From NCBI GenBank assembly GCA_937902985.1, contig CALFNG010000446.1:1-64000 (forward strand): a stretch of 64,000 nt of DNA. The letters run 5' to 3'. The position numbers and the translations under genes are program-made. How positions within the stretch are numbered: the first letter of the stretch is position 1; each line of letters opens with the position of its first letter. This DNA is from an uncultured Myxococcales bacterium (lineage in GTDB: Bacteria > Myxococcota_A > Polyangia > Polyangiales > Polyangiaceae). Below, one piece after another: positions 1 to 55,475 of the stretch. A model generated the notes under the pieces. The model was given only the letters and a program-made list of their open reading frames with translations, was not told where the DNA came from and ran no database searches.

Positions 1-308
1 TCGTCATCTCTCGGCACACGACGGGTCTTCGCTCGAGTGACGGCTCGTCATCTCTCGGCACACGACGGGTCTTCGCTCGAGTGATGGCTCGTCGTCTATC
101 GGCACACGACGGGTCTTCGCTCGAGTGATGGCTGGTCGTCTCTCGGCACACGACGGGTCTTCGCTCGAGTGACGGCTCGTCGTCTATCGGCACACGACGG
201 GTCTTCGCTCGAGTGATGGCTCGTCGTCTATCGGCACACGACGGGTCTTCGCTCGAGTGATGGCTGGTCGTCTCTCGGCACACGACGGGTCTTCGCTCGA
301 GTGACGGC
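1..308. repeat. Tandem array, 7 x 44 bp, near-identical units
   Basis: Seven back-to-back 44-bp units start at 1, 45, 89, 133, 177, 221 and 265. The array touches the window edge, so it may be longer. All units share the internal block CGGCACACGACGGGTCTTCG; variation is limited to a few positions at the unit ends (TCGTCA/TCGTCG/TGGTCG and GTGACGGC/GTGATGGC). Units 3, 5 and 6 are identical, as are units 4 and 7, which points to duplication of multi-unit blocks. Because 44 is not a multiple of 3 the array cannot encode a repeated peptide in one frame. Most units contain a short inverted repeat (CGTCGT paired with ACGACG across about 10 nt). There are no spacers between units, so this is not a CRISPR array. 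Function unknown. Confidence 0.97.
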
Positions 309-531
309 TCCTGCAGCGACATGGGGGGCGGAGTGTGTCGCCCGACCCAATCGCCTGGAGCGACATGGACCACGGTGCATTTGCATGCTCAGGTCCCCGT
401 GGAGCGACATTCTCGACCCCATAGGTCGCCTCACCGACCGCGGTAGGGCGGCATGGACAGCCAGGCATGTCCCTTCACCGAAGATGGTGAGGCGACATTC
501 ACCCGTGCGGATTCGCGATCGACCCGCACGG
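309..531. repeat. Divergent 44-bp periodic array with GCGACAT core
   Basis: Immediately right of the homogeneous array the 44-bp period continues in a different sequence. The heptamer GCGACAT occurs at 316, 360, 404 and 492, and as GCGGCAT at 448, each exactly 44 bp from the next. Each unit begins with T four bases before the core (312, 356, 400, 444, 488), giving a consensus near TGGAGCGACATGGA, while the remaining roughly 30 bp differ completely. Every variable part contains an inverted repeat: GGGCG/CGCCC, GGACC/GGTCC, CGACC/GGTCG, GGACA/TGTCC and CCGTGCGG/CCGCACGG. Short pairs of five are expected fairly often by chance; the 8-bp pair is not. A sixth unit around 532-575 is too eroded to call. 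No coding frame fits. Confidence 0.85.
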
Positions 532-837
532 CGGCTGCCATGCGAATGGCCCGTCTTGCGGCAGGCGTCGGCCTCCTGCAGGCTCCTGGCAGCGCAGAGG
601 CCGGAGTTCCCGGCCGACTGACCTGCGCAGAAAGACACGCGAGATCGAGCTTGCAGAGTGTGCCAACTTCAGCGCTGAGCTGACGGGAATGTCAGAGACC
701 ATGGCCGGCCCGGCGTTCTCTCAAGGGCGATTCATGTATGATTCCTCGGCGATGCGAGGCGAGCGCAGGGCGGGCGCAGGAAGTGCATCGAGCCCGTCCG
801 GGCTGGTGAGAGCACGGTCCGCCGCGGAGGGTGTTTC
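532..837. other. Non-coding leader between array and first gene
   Basis: No gene is recognisable here. A perfect 6-bp inverted repeat, GGCCGG-agttc-CCGGCC, lies at 599-615 and could form a stable hairpin, but it has no T-run. The last 15 bases carry a purine-rich GCGGAGGG (826-833), a usable ribosome binding site for the gene at 838. I see no clear promoter boxes. Confidence 0.5.
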
Positions 838-2280
838 ATGAATCGATCGGCGCTTGCCTTGGGGATCGGTGTGACGGTGTCCGCGCTCGGCTTTGCGGGG
901 GAGCGCGATGCGGCGGCGTGCGGCGGATGCTTCCATCCCCCCACCCAGACGGCCTCGGACATCACCGACGAGCGCATGCTGCTCTCGGTCTCCCCGACGC
1001 AGACGACGCTCTACGATCAGATCGAGTACGCCGGGAGCCCCTCCTCCTTTGCGTGGGTCCTGCCGATTCACGGGACGGTTGCCGTCGGCCTGAGCGCGGA
1101 CGTCCTCTTCGACTCGATCGACGAGCTCACCGCGACGCAGATCGTCGCGCCGAGCGGGTGCCCGGGTCCTCCGAGCAGCTGCCAGAGCGGCAGCAAGAGC
1201 GGCGCCGCAAGCCTCGCGGGAGAAGACTCGGCCGGCGGCACCGTGACGGTGACGAAGCAGCAGAACGTCGGCCCGTACGACACCGTCCAGCTGCACGCGA
1301 CCGACTCGAGCGCGCTCAACGCATGGCTCGCGGCCAACGGCTTCAGCATCCCCGCAGAGGTCAAGCCGGTCATCGACGAGTACGTCAAGGAGGGCTTCGA
1401 CTTCCTCGCGATGAAGCTGCTCCCCGACCAGGGGGTGCAGGCGATGCGCCCCGTGCGCGTCACCACGCCGGGGGCGTCGTTCTCGCTTCCGCTGCGAATG
1501 GCGGCCGTCGGAACGGGCGCCGCGGTCGGCATCACGATCTGGGTCGTCAGCGATGGGCGGTACGAGCCGCAGAATTTCCCCTTCTTCCACATCGAGGACC
1601 CGGAGCTCGTCTGGGACTGGAGCACGAGTTCTAGCAACTACACGGCGCTCCGCTCGAAGAAGGAGGCCGCGCTCGGCGGCAAGGGGTGGGAGATCGAGAG
1701 CTCGATCGCGCTCAGCCAGGCCCTCGTGACCAACGTCATCCTGAGCGGCGGATACTACAGCGGCAACGGCAGCGGCGGCCTCGCGGGCGCCGCCCCCGCG
1801 GACCCGACGCAGGATTACCTCGCCGTCGGCGCTTCCGACGGGGGAGCCGAGGGCGGCGCCGCCGAGACGGCCGAGCAGGTCCGGACCGACGACATCAACG
1901 CGCTCTTTGCCGGGGTCCCCGGGCCGAACACGCGCATCACCCGCATGCGAAGCGACATCGCGCACGCCGCGATGACCGTCGACTTCGTCCTTCGCGCGTC
2001 GGCCGATCAAGCGGAGCTCTCGAACGTTCGCAGCGTGACCCAGAGCGTGAACCTCCAGTGCCCGATCTACGGATCGTCGCCGTTCGGCCTGACGCCGGGC
2101 TCGAGCTGCAACGTCGTCGGGTACGGGCCGCCCGCGCAGGCCGCGGGCGCCTCGGGGAGCGGGGGGTGCGCCGCCGCGGCGCCGTCGACCCGCTACCCGT
2201 GGACCGGCCTCGCCATGCTCGTCGGGTTGGTCGGGCTCGTCGCGGTTCGCGTGGTCCGCGCGCGTCGCCCGCGCATTTGA
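838..2280 (+). CDS. DUF2330 domain protein with MYXO-CTERM-like tail
   Basis: 480 residues. An N-terminal signal peptide (about 1-27) is followed by ACGGCF and then the DUF2330 body, with its LPIHG motif and scattered cysteines (about 27-330). DUF2330 proteins are secreted proteins of unknown function common in myxobacteria and actinobacteria. The C-terminus has a glycine/serine linker, a single Cys in SGGCAAAA, one hydrophobic helix (about 452-472) and a terminal Arg cluster (RARRPRI). That is the layout of MYXO-CTERM sorting tails, though the Cys context is not the textbook one. The start at 838 has GCGGAGGG just upstream. The likely location is the outer surface, anchored by the tail. The gene stands alone; what follows is gene debris. 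Confidence 0.85.
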   Translation: MNRSALALGIGVTVSALGFAGERDAAACGGCFHPPTQTASDITDERMLLSVSPTQTTLYDQIEYAGSPSSFAWVLPIHGTVAVGLSADVLFDSIDELTATQIVAPSGCPGPPSSCQSGSKSGAASLAGEDSAGGTVTVTKQQNVGPYDTVQLHATDSSALNAWLAANGFSIPAEVKPVIDEYVKEGFDFLAMKLLPDQGVQAMRPVRVTTPGASFSLPLRMAAVGTGAAVGITIWVVSDGRYEPQNFPFFHIEDPELVWDWSTSSSNYTALRSKKEAALGGKGWEIESSIALSQALVTNVILSGGYYSGNGSGGLAGAAPADPTQDYLAVGASDGGAEGGAAETAEQVRTDDINALFAGVPGPNTRITRMRSDIAHAAMTVDFVLRASADQAELSNVRSVTQSVNLQCPIYGSSPFGLTPGSSCNVVGYGPPAQAAGASGSGGCAAAAPSTRYPWTGLAMLVGLVGLVAVRVVRARRPRI

Positions 2281-7812: not shown

Positions 7813-8472
7813 AGCGCCCTTCGGCCGGGCCCACACCCCGAACACGTAGTTGCCGGTCCCGGTCCCGTCGACTTCGACCTTGAAACGAAAGTCGCCGTCG
7901 GCGTCGATGCACCAGTTCTTGTCGGACTCGATGATCGCGACCGGGCCGTTGGTCTTGTCGTCACCCACGAGATCGCCGTTGGCGCGCTCGATGAGGATGT
8001 CGAGATCCTGGATGGAGCCGTCGGCCACCCCGAAGAACCGGTAGCAGAGGCCACCCTGGATCTTGACAGCGAACGTGTCGCGCTTGTCGTGCAGGTGATG
8101 AAGCTTGCCGATGATCGGCTTGACGTATTGAACCGACCCGGTCGGGCCACCGCAGCTCGAGACGAGCGCTTCGTAATCCTTCTCGGCGTCCCCCGAGATG
8201 CGCACCGTCTGCCAGCAGTCCCGGTCCGAGGCGGTCGCCCTGGGAAACGAGGGGCGACTGTCTTTGCCGAAGAGCGGCGTCATCGTCTCCGGGTCCCGTA
8301 GCTCGGCAGGGTCATCGTAGGCCTCCGGCGCTGGGGCCGCGGGCCCTGGAACGGCCGCCGTGACGACCGGTGGCGACGGAGCTGGCGCCTCCTGAGCGAC
8401 GGCCGCGGGTGGTGGAGGGTTGCTGGCACATGCAGCCGTGAGCGCGAAGACAGCGAAGATCGATGAACGCAT
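7786..8472 (-). CDS. Hypothetical lipoprotein
   Basis: 228 residues. The signal peptide ends at TAAC (Cys15), giving a probable lipoprotein. A Pro/Ala-rich linker (about 18-55) precedes a compact C-terminal domain with FGKDSRPSFPRA, DRDCWQTVRISGD, CYRFFGVADG and NWCIDADGDF. The C-terminal part resembles a small beta-sandwich that would sense or bind something, but I do not recognise a family. Three cysteines could pair in the periplasm. The last 27 bp overlap the tail of the convergent Cys-rich lipoprotein gene. Confidence 0.75.
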   Translation of the reverse strand: MRSSIFAVFALTAACASNPPPPAAVAQEAPAPSPPVVTAAVPGPAAPAPEAYDDPAELRDPETMTPLFGKDSRPSFPRATASDRDCWQTVRISGDAEKDYEALVSSCGGPTGSVQYVKPIIGKLHHLHDKRDTFAVKIQGGLCYRFFGVADGSIQDLDILIERANGDLVGDDKTNGPVAIIESDKNWCIDADGDFRFKVEVDGTGTGNYVFGVWARPKGALKATVAAR

Positions 8473-52602: not shown

Positions 52603-54696
52603 TCAGGCCGCGAGCCGCTGCTTCTGGACCGACAGCGTGCGCCCCGCCCGGAGGTCGAGGCGCACGGGCACGACGATCATCGGCAGCCCGCGGCGCTGCA
52701 GCCGCTTCTGGACCATGAAGGCCGTCTCGTTGTGGAGGATGCGATTCCAGAGCGTGTCTTCCTCGAAGATGAGCTGGCCGGCGACGAAGAGCGCCTCGGA
52801 GTAACGGTCCGTCAGGTCGGTCGCGATCTTCTCGACCTCGACGGCGACCTCGGTTCCGACGGCGAACGCGCTCGACGCCGTCAGACCGAGCGACTGCGCG
52901 TAGCGCTCGTAGTTGAGGAGGTGGGCGCGCGTACGCGCCTCGAGGGCCTCGACCTGGTCGGCGCCCTTGAATGACTCGGAGTCGACGACGGCGACGCTGA
53001 CGAAGATGATCCCGCTGAAGTGTCGCGGGAACATGCGAAGGAGCGTCAGGAGCGCGTGCCGACCGAGGCCGCTGTAGCCGCCGACGAGCAGGATCGCGAC
53101 CGCCTTGTTCCGGTCCGGATCGCGCGCCCCGTGATGCTCGAGGAGCCCTCGGGTCCCGGCGGACGCGAACGAGGATTCGGAGATGGGAGCCGGGGGGACG
53201 AAACCCGGCTCCATCGGTCCCCCGCCCTCGAAGGGGCAAGGCAGCTCGTCGTCGAGCTTTCGGAGGGCTCCGACCACGGCGCGGTAGTGGCGCTTGACCA
53301 TGAAGCAGCCGATGACGAGGATCGTCGTCACGAGCATCGTCACCCAGCCGCCGTCTGCGAACTTCTCGATGATCGTGATCACGAGGATGGTGACGCACAA
53401 GACCAGGCCGGCCAGGTGCCCGACGAGGTGCTTGAACCACGTCGCGTGCTCGCGTCGATGGGTGATCCAGAACCGGGTCATCGCCAGGTTCGACAGGCTG
53501 AACGTCAAGAAGACGTTGATCGAGTACATGACGACGAGCTTTGACACGTCGCCGCGCGTGTACACGAGCGCGACGAACGCGAAGAACCCCATGATGGCGA
53601 CGCCATTGCGCATCGACAGGCGGTCGGACAGCGCGGCGAAGCGGTGCGGCAGCCACGAATCGGTCGCCATGTTCGCCATGACGCGCGGCCCATCGAGGAA
53701 CCCGGCCTGCGCCGCCACGAAGAGGAGAGCTCCTTCGGTGAGCAGCGAGCCGACCACGAACCAGCCGCCGACGTGAACCCCCGCGATCGACCAGCCGCCC
53801 GCGATCCGTTCGAGGAGGACGGCGTTCATCGTCTTGCCTTCTTCGGGCCGCGCGTGAACGAGCAGGTACGACAGCAAGATGCCGCCCGCGGTGACCGCCA
53901 GCGATACCGCCATCAGGGTCATCGTGCGCTTCGCCGTCTGGACGCGCGGCTCGCGCATCATCCCGACGCCGTTCGAGACGGCCTCGATGCCGGTATAGGT
54001 GCCGCCACCCATCGAGTAGGCGTGAACGAAGAGCTTGAGGGCGCCGAACATGCCGAGCGCCGTGGTCGTCGCGCTCACGTTCCGGTGCACCTCGGTCGCG
54101 ACCTCGCCGGCGTCGCCCAAGTGGCCGCCGATCGCGACGACGAGCAGCACGATGTGGCTGATGACGAAGAGCGCGAAGACCGGAACGAGCGCCGTCACCG
54201 ACTCCTTGACCCCGCGGATGTTCATCACCGTGAGGAGCCCAACGCCCGCGAACGCCACGGGGAGCTTGATCCAGTGCAACGACTCGGGGATGAAGCTGAA
54301 GACTGCGTCGGCGCCGCTGGCGATCGAGATCGTGATCGTGAGCACGTAGTCGACGAGGAGCGCCGCCCCGGACGCCACGCCGACCTCGGGCGAGAGAAGC
54401 TTCGAGGCGACCACGTACCCGCCGCCTCCCGAGGGGAACTGCTCGATGATGCGGCTGTACCCGTAGCTGATGACGAAGACCGTGCCGGCCGTCGCCGCAG
54501 CGAGGAAGAAGGCGAAGCCGGTGTGTTCGCCGAGCGCGCGAAAGGCTTCGTCGGGACCGTAGGCCGAAGACGAGAGGCCGTCGGCGCCGAGGCCGACCCA
54601 GGCGAGGAGCGCCACCAGGGAGAGCTTGTGAAATGCTTCCGGGTCCTTGACGTCCTTAGGAGCGCCAAAGAGCCATCGTCCGATAGCGTGTGGCAT
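52603..54696 (-). CDS. KimA-like APC-family transporter under riboswitch control
   Basis: 697 residues from ATG 54696. An APC-superfamily permease: WLFGAPKDVKDPEAFHKLSL, then GADGLSSSAYGPDEAF, the substrate-helix break resembling the GSxxG segment (IIEQFPSGGGGYVVASKLLS), and about 12 hydrophobic helices to residue 490. A soluble C-terminal domain (about 530-690) has ILLVGGYSGLGRHALL and VAVVDSESFKGADQVEALEA. This layout fits KimA-type high-affinity potassium importers. A probable c-di-AMP riboswitch lies in its 5' leader, and that pairing is typical of potassium importers in other phyla. Amino-acid transport cannot be excluded. Confidence 0.78.
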   Translation of the reverse strand: MPHAIGRWLFGAPKDVKDPEAFHKLSLVALLAWVGLGADGLSSSAYGPDEAFRALGEHTGFAFFLAAATAGTVFVISYGYSRIIEQFPSGGGGYVVASKLLSPEVGVASGAALLVDYVLTITISIASGADAVFSFIPESLHWIKLPVAFAGVGLLTVMNIRGVKESVTALVPVFALFVISHIVLLVVAIGGHLGDAGEVATEVHRNVSATTTALGMFGALKLFVHAYSMGGGTYTGIEAVSNGVGMMREPRVQTAKRTMTLMAVSLAVTAGGILLSYLLVHARPEEGKTMNAVLLERIAGGWSIAGVHVGGWFVVGSLLTEGALLFVAAQAGFLDGPRVMANMATDSWLPHRFAALSDRLSMRNGVAIMGFFAFVALVYTRGDVSKLVVMYSINVFLTFSLSNLAMTRFWITHRREHATWFKHLVGHLAGLVLCVTILVITIIEKFADGGWVTMLVTTILVIGCFMVKRHYRAVVGALRKLDDELPCPFEGGGPMEPGFVPPAPISESSFASAGTRGLLEHHGARDPDRNKAVAILLVGGYSGLGRHALLTLLRMFPRHFSGIIFVSVAVVDSESFKGADQVEALEARTRAHLLNYERYAQSLGLTASSAFAVGTEVAVEVEKIATDLTDRYSEALFVAGQLIFEEDTLWNRILHNETAFMVQKRLQRRGLPMIVVPVRLDLRAGRTLSVQKQRLAA

Positions 54697-55031
54697 GTGA
54701 ATCCGCGGGCGTTGTTGCGGCGCTCTCGCGCCTTTCCTCGCGTCTACGAGGTTAGCTGCCGGGCTAAGGCGGAAAGGTGCCTTTGCCGGCGCGCGATGCG
54801 TGCCGGCGTTCGCCCCGTGGCAAGGGAGCCAAGCATGGTGGGTCCCCCGTTGGGCCGGCATGGCCGGCCATTCGACGCAGTCCGGACCCTAGTTCGAGGC
54901 GCATCAAGAAAACGTTAAGATTTCGTCGGCAGCCCCCGGCGTCCACATGAAGTCTTGATTGAACGGAGGGAAACCTTTGCAGAATCCTTATCTGGAGGGG
55001 CCTAGGTTTCGCGGCGAAAGGACCTGCCGCC
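54697..55031. other. Divergent intergenic region with riboswitch
   Basis: 335 bp between the KimA-like gene (minus) and the small membrane protein at 55032 (plus). About half is a ydaO/yuaA-like aptamer for the transporter. The remainder (54886-55031) is less GC-rich, with AAGAAAACGTTAAGA (54906-54920), and should contain promoters for both directions; no clean -10/-35 pair is visible. Confidence 0.55.
54730..54885 (-). promoter_or_regulatory. ydaO/yuaA-type c-di-AMP riboswitch
   Basis: Read on the minus strand. The conserved blocks appear in order: GUCGAAU at the 5' side, a 7-bp hairpin GGCCGGC-CAU-GCCGGCC, GGGGGACCCACC, GGGGCGAAC, a GCCGGC/GCCGGC stem, then the highly diagnostic AGCCCGGCAGCUAACCUCGU, with AGACGCGAGGAAAGG closing it. 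The last segment matches the ydaO consensus (CCCGxCAGCUAACCUCGxAGGCG...GGAAGG). The ligand is c-di-AMP, which switches transporter genes off in known cases. A hairpin GGCGC-GAGA-GCGCC (54719-54732) follows and is a candidate expression platform. ATG of the KimA-like gene is 34 bases after the aptamer. Confidence 0.8.
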
Positions 55032-55406
55032 TTGATCCCCACACCGGTTGCACCGCCCGCGGTTCCTGCCGTTGGCGAGCCGTTCGCGCGCTCGCCGTCT
55101 GCTCCTCCCCCGCGGCCTCCGCGTGAGCCGCAGGCGGGCGCCTCGCCTCCCCTTCCGTCGCGATGGCGCGACGTCGACGTCCTCGTCGCGCTCTCCGCCC
55201 TCTGGATCGTGAGCGTCGTTCGGGTCGTCGGAGCGGGCGCGCACCACGAGGTCTTCGGCGCCGAAGCGACCCTCGCGTTCCTCAGCATGTTCGCGATTCC
55301 GTGGATCGTGGTTCGCGGGCGCCTGACCGATCGCGCGCACCGTAACAACGCGCGACCGAGCTTGCGGCTCGTTCGAGGCACGGAGACCCGTAGACGGCGC
55401 ACGTAA
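55032..55406 (+). CDS. Small two-helix membrane protein
   Basis: 124 residues from TTG 55032, with AAAGGA upstream at suitable spacing. A Pro-rich N-terminal 45 residues, two hydrophobic helices (VDVLVALSALWIVSVVRVVG and ATLAFLSMFAIPWIVVRGRL) and a basic C-terminal tail RLVRGTETRRRRT. Family not recognised. It sits 155 bp upstream of atpD on the same strand, but a minisatellite lies in between. Confidence 0.5.
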   Translation: MIPTPVAPPAVPAVGEPFARSPSAPPPRPPREPQAGASPPLPSRWRDVDVLVALSALWIVSVVRVVGAGAHHEVFGAEATLAFLSMFAIPWIVVRGRLTDRAHRNNARPSLRLVRGTETRRRRT

Positions 55407-55425: not shown

Positions 55426-55475
55426 CCACGTTCTCCACGTTCTCCACGTTCTCCACGTTCTCCACGTTCTCCACG
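55426..55475. repeat. 9-bp minisatellite, 5.5 copies
   Basis: CCACGTTCT is repeated five times plus a partial unit in the 5' region of atpD. No gene uses this region; the opposite strand would encode Glu-Asn-Val repeats but has no start context. Confidence 0.93.

Follow-up and report, generated by a model that had tools for sequence, protein, structure and literature searches.

Results

The kimA Locus

On the minus strand of the window (the whole stretch of 64,000 nucleotides analysed here) lies a gene, at 52603–54696, whose 697 residue product we identified by homology as KimA, a KUP-family K+/H+ symporter; its ATG start is supported by homologs, aligning with the starts in its relatives. 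The sequence-only reading had recognized a KimA-like transporter here, and this was borne out by a phmmer search, in which the closest solved relative was B. subtilis KimA (6s3k/8b70/8b71; E-value of 1.3e-59). All nine of the residues that we checked for the K+ path and proton coupling of the B. subtilis protein (D36, Y43, D117, Y118, T121, S125, T230, E233, and Y377; PMC6994465) are identical in the window KimA. B. subtilis KimA also has a c-di-AMP pocket of its own (R337, H579, N580, Q581, and S582; PMC10284832), for which the phmmer alignment showed H579 and N580 to be kept and R337, Q581, and S582 to be replaced by H, E, and T, respectively; based on this alignment, direct inhibition of the window KimA protein by c-di-AMP is possible. 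Downstream of kimA is an ORF for a DinG-type helicase (Helicase_C_2), and upstream, in divergent orientation, are atpD, encoding the ATP synthase beta subunit, and, judged by position and sequence, the epsilon subunit gene. Between a small ORF and atpD there is a perfect tandem repeat of the 9-base unit CCACGTTCT (55426–55475, 5.6 copies).

The Riboswitch Aptamer

The 5' leader of kimA contains, on the same strand as the gene, a full-length c-di-AMP (ydaO/yuaA) riboswitch aptamer at 54887–54727 that ends 30 nt ahead of the ATG. The match to RF00379 (Rfam 15) covers the full model (positions 1–134) with a score of 53.6 bits (E-value of 1.3e-9) against a gathering score of 38 bits, and it is the single match to this family in the whole genome (G000; 8.3 Mb, 563 contigs). 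The sequence-only reading had assigned the element to this class and placed it at 54730–54885, no more than 3 nt off at either end, giving no strand; the sequence blocks that it quoted, AGCCCGGCAGCUAACCUCGU, GGGGGACCCACC, and GGGGCGAA, are all found in the minus-strand RNA.

In the model alignment 25 of the 26 model pairs are standard in the window aptamer, the one departure being an A-C at model pair 41/48, which is broken in six of ten relatives as well. Two pairs carry compensated changes, one in P1 (model positions 13/117, C-G to U-A) and one in helix pair 76/93 (G-C to A-U), the latter common to three Polyangiales relatives. At the upper-case, i.e., strongly conserved, consensus positions the window is identical at 44 of 56 and differs at 12; these differences include U53 to C and A96 to G, both found in all eleven aligned phylum members, and model position 74, where the consensus U is an A in the window and the base varies within the Polyangiales group. 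The ligand contacts described in PMC7288161 include a U and an A, perhaps close to model position 74; as the numbering of that paper maps to the model without certainty, this position is perhaps at one ligand pocket. Judged by its sequence, the window element is a genuine riboswitch of the known c-di-AMP class, for which binding of the ligand and control of expression are predicted.

Probable Promoter Region and Expression Platform

Directly 5' of the aptamer we place a probable promoter region (54888–54930, minus strand) based on the leaders of relatives. A TTG lies 32–42 nt ahead of P1 in 12 of 14 non-redundant leaders, which was matched by none of 5000 shuffles, and since this TTG resembles a -35 element, transcription in the relatives probably starts near the aptamer. 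The window and one other leader have no TTG at this distance; the window has just TTAACG (-41 relative to P1) and TTGATG (-30), and no consensus promoter was found in it.

The expression platform region is the 30 nt between the aptamer end and the ATG (54697–54726, minus strand), which can fold, with the help of the final bases of the aptamer, into the hairpin GGCGC-GAGA-GCGCC, with no U-tract. We discarded an intrinsic terminator as the platform, and consider one unlikely for this riboswitch, based on there being no terminator-like site in 54500–55100. The minimum-energy fold, and inspection by eye of a few relatives, showed the 5' flank pairing with the RBS region; we set this aside since, going by the promoter motif found in the relatives, transcripts begin at about P1 and the flank is probably untranscribed. 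A purine tract after P1 that could pair with a downstream CCUC did not surpass shuffles in most of the leaders, and ligand-dependent exposure of the RBS was likewise dropped, as its accessibility showed no clear change (0.56 with the aptamer helices forced and 0.51 without). In two leaders, those of G373 and G452, the purine tract immediately 3' of P1 looks like a Shine-Dalgarno sequence, and closure of P1 could block the ribosome there; this does not apply to the window, whose ATG lies at too great a distance from P1. The candidate modes left for the window riboswitch are translation control and Rho-dependent termination.

c-di-AMP Synthesis and Breakdown

A diadenylate cyclase had been predicted from the riboswitch, and the genome search identified one clear DAC-domain protein, a CdaA equivalog (TIGR00159) scoring 211.9 bits against the NCBIfam cut-off of 188.8, in which the DGA and RHR motifs are readable. 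Its gene lies in the order folP-cdaA-cdaR, the last being a YbbR/CdaR gene. The sequence-only reading had named two findings that would speak against it, a covariance score below threshold and a genome without a DAC-domain gene; the score lies above threshold and the genome has the gene. The cyclase is therefore present as predicted, but it is not a special prediction of the kimA locus, since a DAC domain occurs in 338 of the 377 phylum genomes and is thus nearly universal. DAC genes are described in PMC7288161 as often present in Deltaproteobacteria. We also observed a second DAC-like protein on contig C257 (L003/L159; ORF 87–1409, minus strand), which has a DACNV sensor domain (E-value of 3.1e-27) and readable DGA and RHR motifs, with a DAC match below the cut-off (21.8 vs. 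27 bits); going by these motifs, it is possible that this protein is a second cyclase. In this genome (~96% complete) we found neither a PgpH-type (PF07698) nor a GdpP/DhhP-type (DHH-DHHA1) phosphodiesterase, the sole DHH match reading as a RecJ that is split across two contigs.

Distribution in Myxococcota

While the RF00379 class is well known, the phylum is an uncommon host for it, with matches in just 13 of 377 genomes. All 13 precede a K+ transporter, 12 of them directly before kimA and the thirteenth before a Kup-type transporter, and with so few matches placed so consistently chance is a poor explanation. The one non-kimA riboswitch (L129 in G267, 8205–8336) stands before a Kup gene that matches Pfam K_trans with an E-value of 9e-192. 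KimA itself is patchy, being present in 21 of 183 order-level genomes and in 23 of 356 across the phylum, and our phylum and order-level searches together gave a total of 17 kimA loci with a riboswitch. One of these is in a cultured relative that we take to be Minicystis rosea (G452; 41.6 bits). The genome G373 has two kimA paralogs, one with a riboswitch and one without (L111 and L112), a natural within-cell comparison. Individual myxobacterial members may already have been mentioned earlier, e.g., in the Rfam full alignment; our searches of open-licence papers, judged by titles and abstracts, turned up none that describes a c-di-AMP output in Myxococcota.

Riboswitch and Adjacent Kdp-Type Genes

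When we compared kimA loci across the phylum, 17 had the riboswitch, nine had adjacent Kdp-type genes, for a KdpE-like regulator and/or a KdpD-like kinase (G428, G469, G456, G429, G319, G419, G420, G228, and G190), eight had neither, and none had both, with the proviso that some kimA flanks are short at contig ends, so that Kdp genes may have gone unseen at some loci. We confirmed the KdpD sensor domain PF02702 next to kimA at four of these nine loci (G428, G429, G319, and G419); in G469 and G420 only KdpE is visible before the contig end, and in G456, G228, and G190 a kinase without a recognized KdpD sensor domain lies beside a KdpE-like regulator. Three Anaeromyxobacter kimA loci similarly have KdpE and/or KdpD-like genes adjoining and no riboswitch. 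If kinship is left out of account, a complete lack of overlap would arise by chance with a probability of ~5e-4 among the 34 loci, or of 2e-4 when the six Anaeromyxobacter loci are included. Mapped on the KimA tree, the riboswitch label undergoes at least 10 changes, seven of which are forced by well-supported branches. Among seven independent contrasts the Kdp label differs as well in only one to three, always in the opposite direction, and the exclusion with kinship counted is not significant (median p of 0.25), the contrasts being too few.

Mutual exclusion of this riboswitch and KdpDE has already been published for kdp operons (PMC6488665). A genome-wide exclusion in Myxococcota is ruled out, as most riboswitch genomes carry KdpD elsewhere, and any exclusion is thus local to kimA. 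The window genome encodes two full-length KdpD kinases, one following kdpBC on C338 (L158) and the other on C55 (L157); the latter is not beside kimA, yet it has 59% identity to the kimA-adjacent KdpD of G428. The c-di-AMP-binding motif (A/G/C)XSXSX2N(Y/F) is absent from both of these proteins and from the one complete kimA-adjacent KdpD searched.

Within the phylum kimA appears to have two alternative local regulators, one being the riboswitch and the other the adjacent Kdp-type two-component genes, whose control of kimA we infer from adjacency only. That the kimA genes of Myxococcota have repeatedly swapped their local regulator between the two is a tentative proposal, to which we give somewhat less than even odds. 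If true, one K+ importer would be governed by a second messenger inside the cell in some lineages, and by a protein sensor in close relatives. This local alternation is an addition made here and the part most worth following.

Discussion

We propose that the leader of the kimA mRNA is a c-di-AMP riboswitch of the ydaO/yuaA class that controls the gene by K+ status. With sufficient K+ in the cell, CdaA would make c-di-AMP, its binding by the leader RNA would close P1 together with the two-site core, and less of the KimA K+/H+ symporter would be expressed; with K+ scarce, c-di-AMP would fall and kimA would be expressed. The ligand, its affinity, and the OFF direction are predicted by analogy with the riboswitch class, and the sequence-only reading, which had c-di-AMP switching kimA off, likewise drew on Bacillus for what would happen in this organism. 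We consider this explanation as a whole to be very probably correct.

The better of two alternatives is that the element is a relic, i.e., a true member of the class by descent whose function has been lost here, leaving kimA constitutive or otherwise controlled. The score of 53.6 bits is well under the 80–90 bits of other phylum members, model position 74 is changed, the terminator, pairing, and folding checks yielded no recognizable expression platform, and near relatives are without any riboswitch trace; no degenerate remnants were found before kimA in L016, L018, L019, and L045 (E-values up to 1). Against this reading, the core blocks are all intact, the change in P1 is compensated, and five other Polyangiales leaders have the same variant features with pairing kept; the kimA reading frame is also intact, and its K+ residues are retained. 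We regard a relic as improbable.

We know of no specificity-switched member of the RF00379 class. Sensing of a different adenine nucleotide (ATP or 3',3'-cGAMP) in place of c-di-AMP is the least probable reading and a very remote one, for although ATP was once listed for this riboswitch class (PMC3766115) and the altered position 74 is perhaps near one pocket, the remaining core is conserved, the target is a K+ transporter, and CdaA is encoded in the genome.

Control of kimA by c-di-AMP would give a concrete predicted output for this messenger in a phylum with DAC domains in almost all of its genomes, and Minicystis rosea offers a cultured organism with the same riboswitch-kimA arrangement. 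The phylum also presents a natural experiment, with kimA genes that are close relatives of one another adjoining an RNA regulator in some cases and a two-component regulator in others.

The closest known system is that of B. subtilis, where a riboswitch of this class also controls kimA (ydaO; PMC6488665, PMC10284832). The two are alike in aptamer class, core blocks, position in the kimA leader, and the presence of a CdaA-type cyclase in the genome; the window riboswitch differs in having no intrinsic terminator that we could find, an aptamer end 30 nt before the ATG, GC-rich stems, and replacements of the consensus U at both model position 53 and model position 74. The kdpFABC riboswitch of B. 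thuringiensis (PMC6488665) is comparable in standing before a high-affinity K+ transporter and in never occurring with KdpDE control of the same gene; there, however, the target is kdpFABC, control is through an intrinsic terminator, and the exclusion is genome-wide, while here the target is kimA and the exclusion is local. KdpDE control, a protein sensor-kinase system as opposed to an RNA, apparently takes the role of the riboswitch in the nine phylum and three Anaeromyxobacter genomes that have Kdp-type genes beside kimA.
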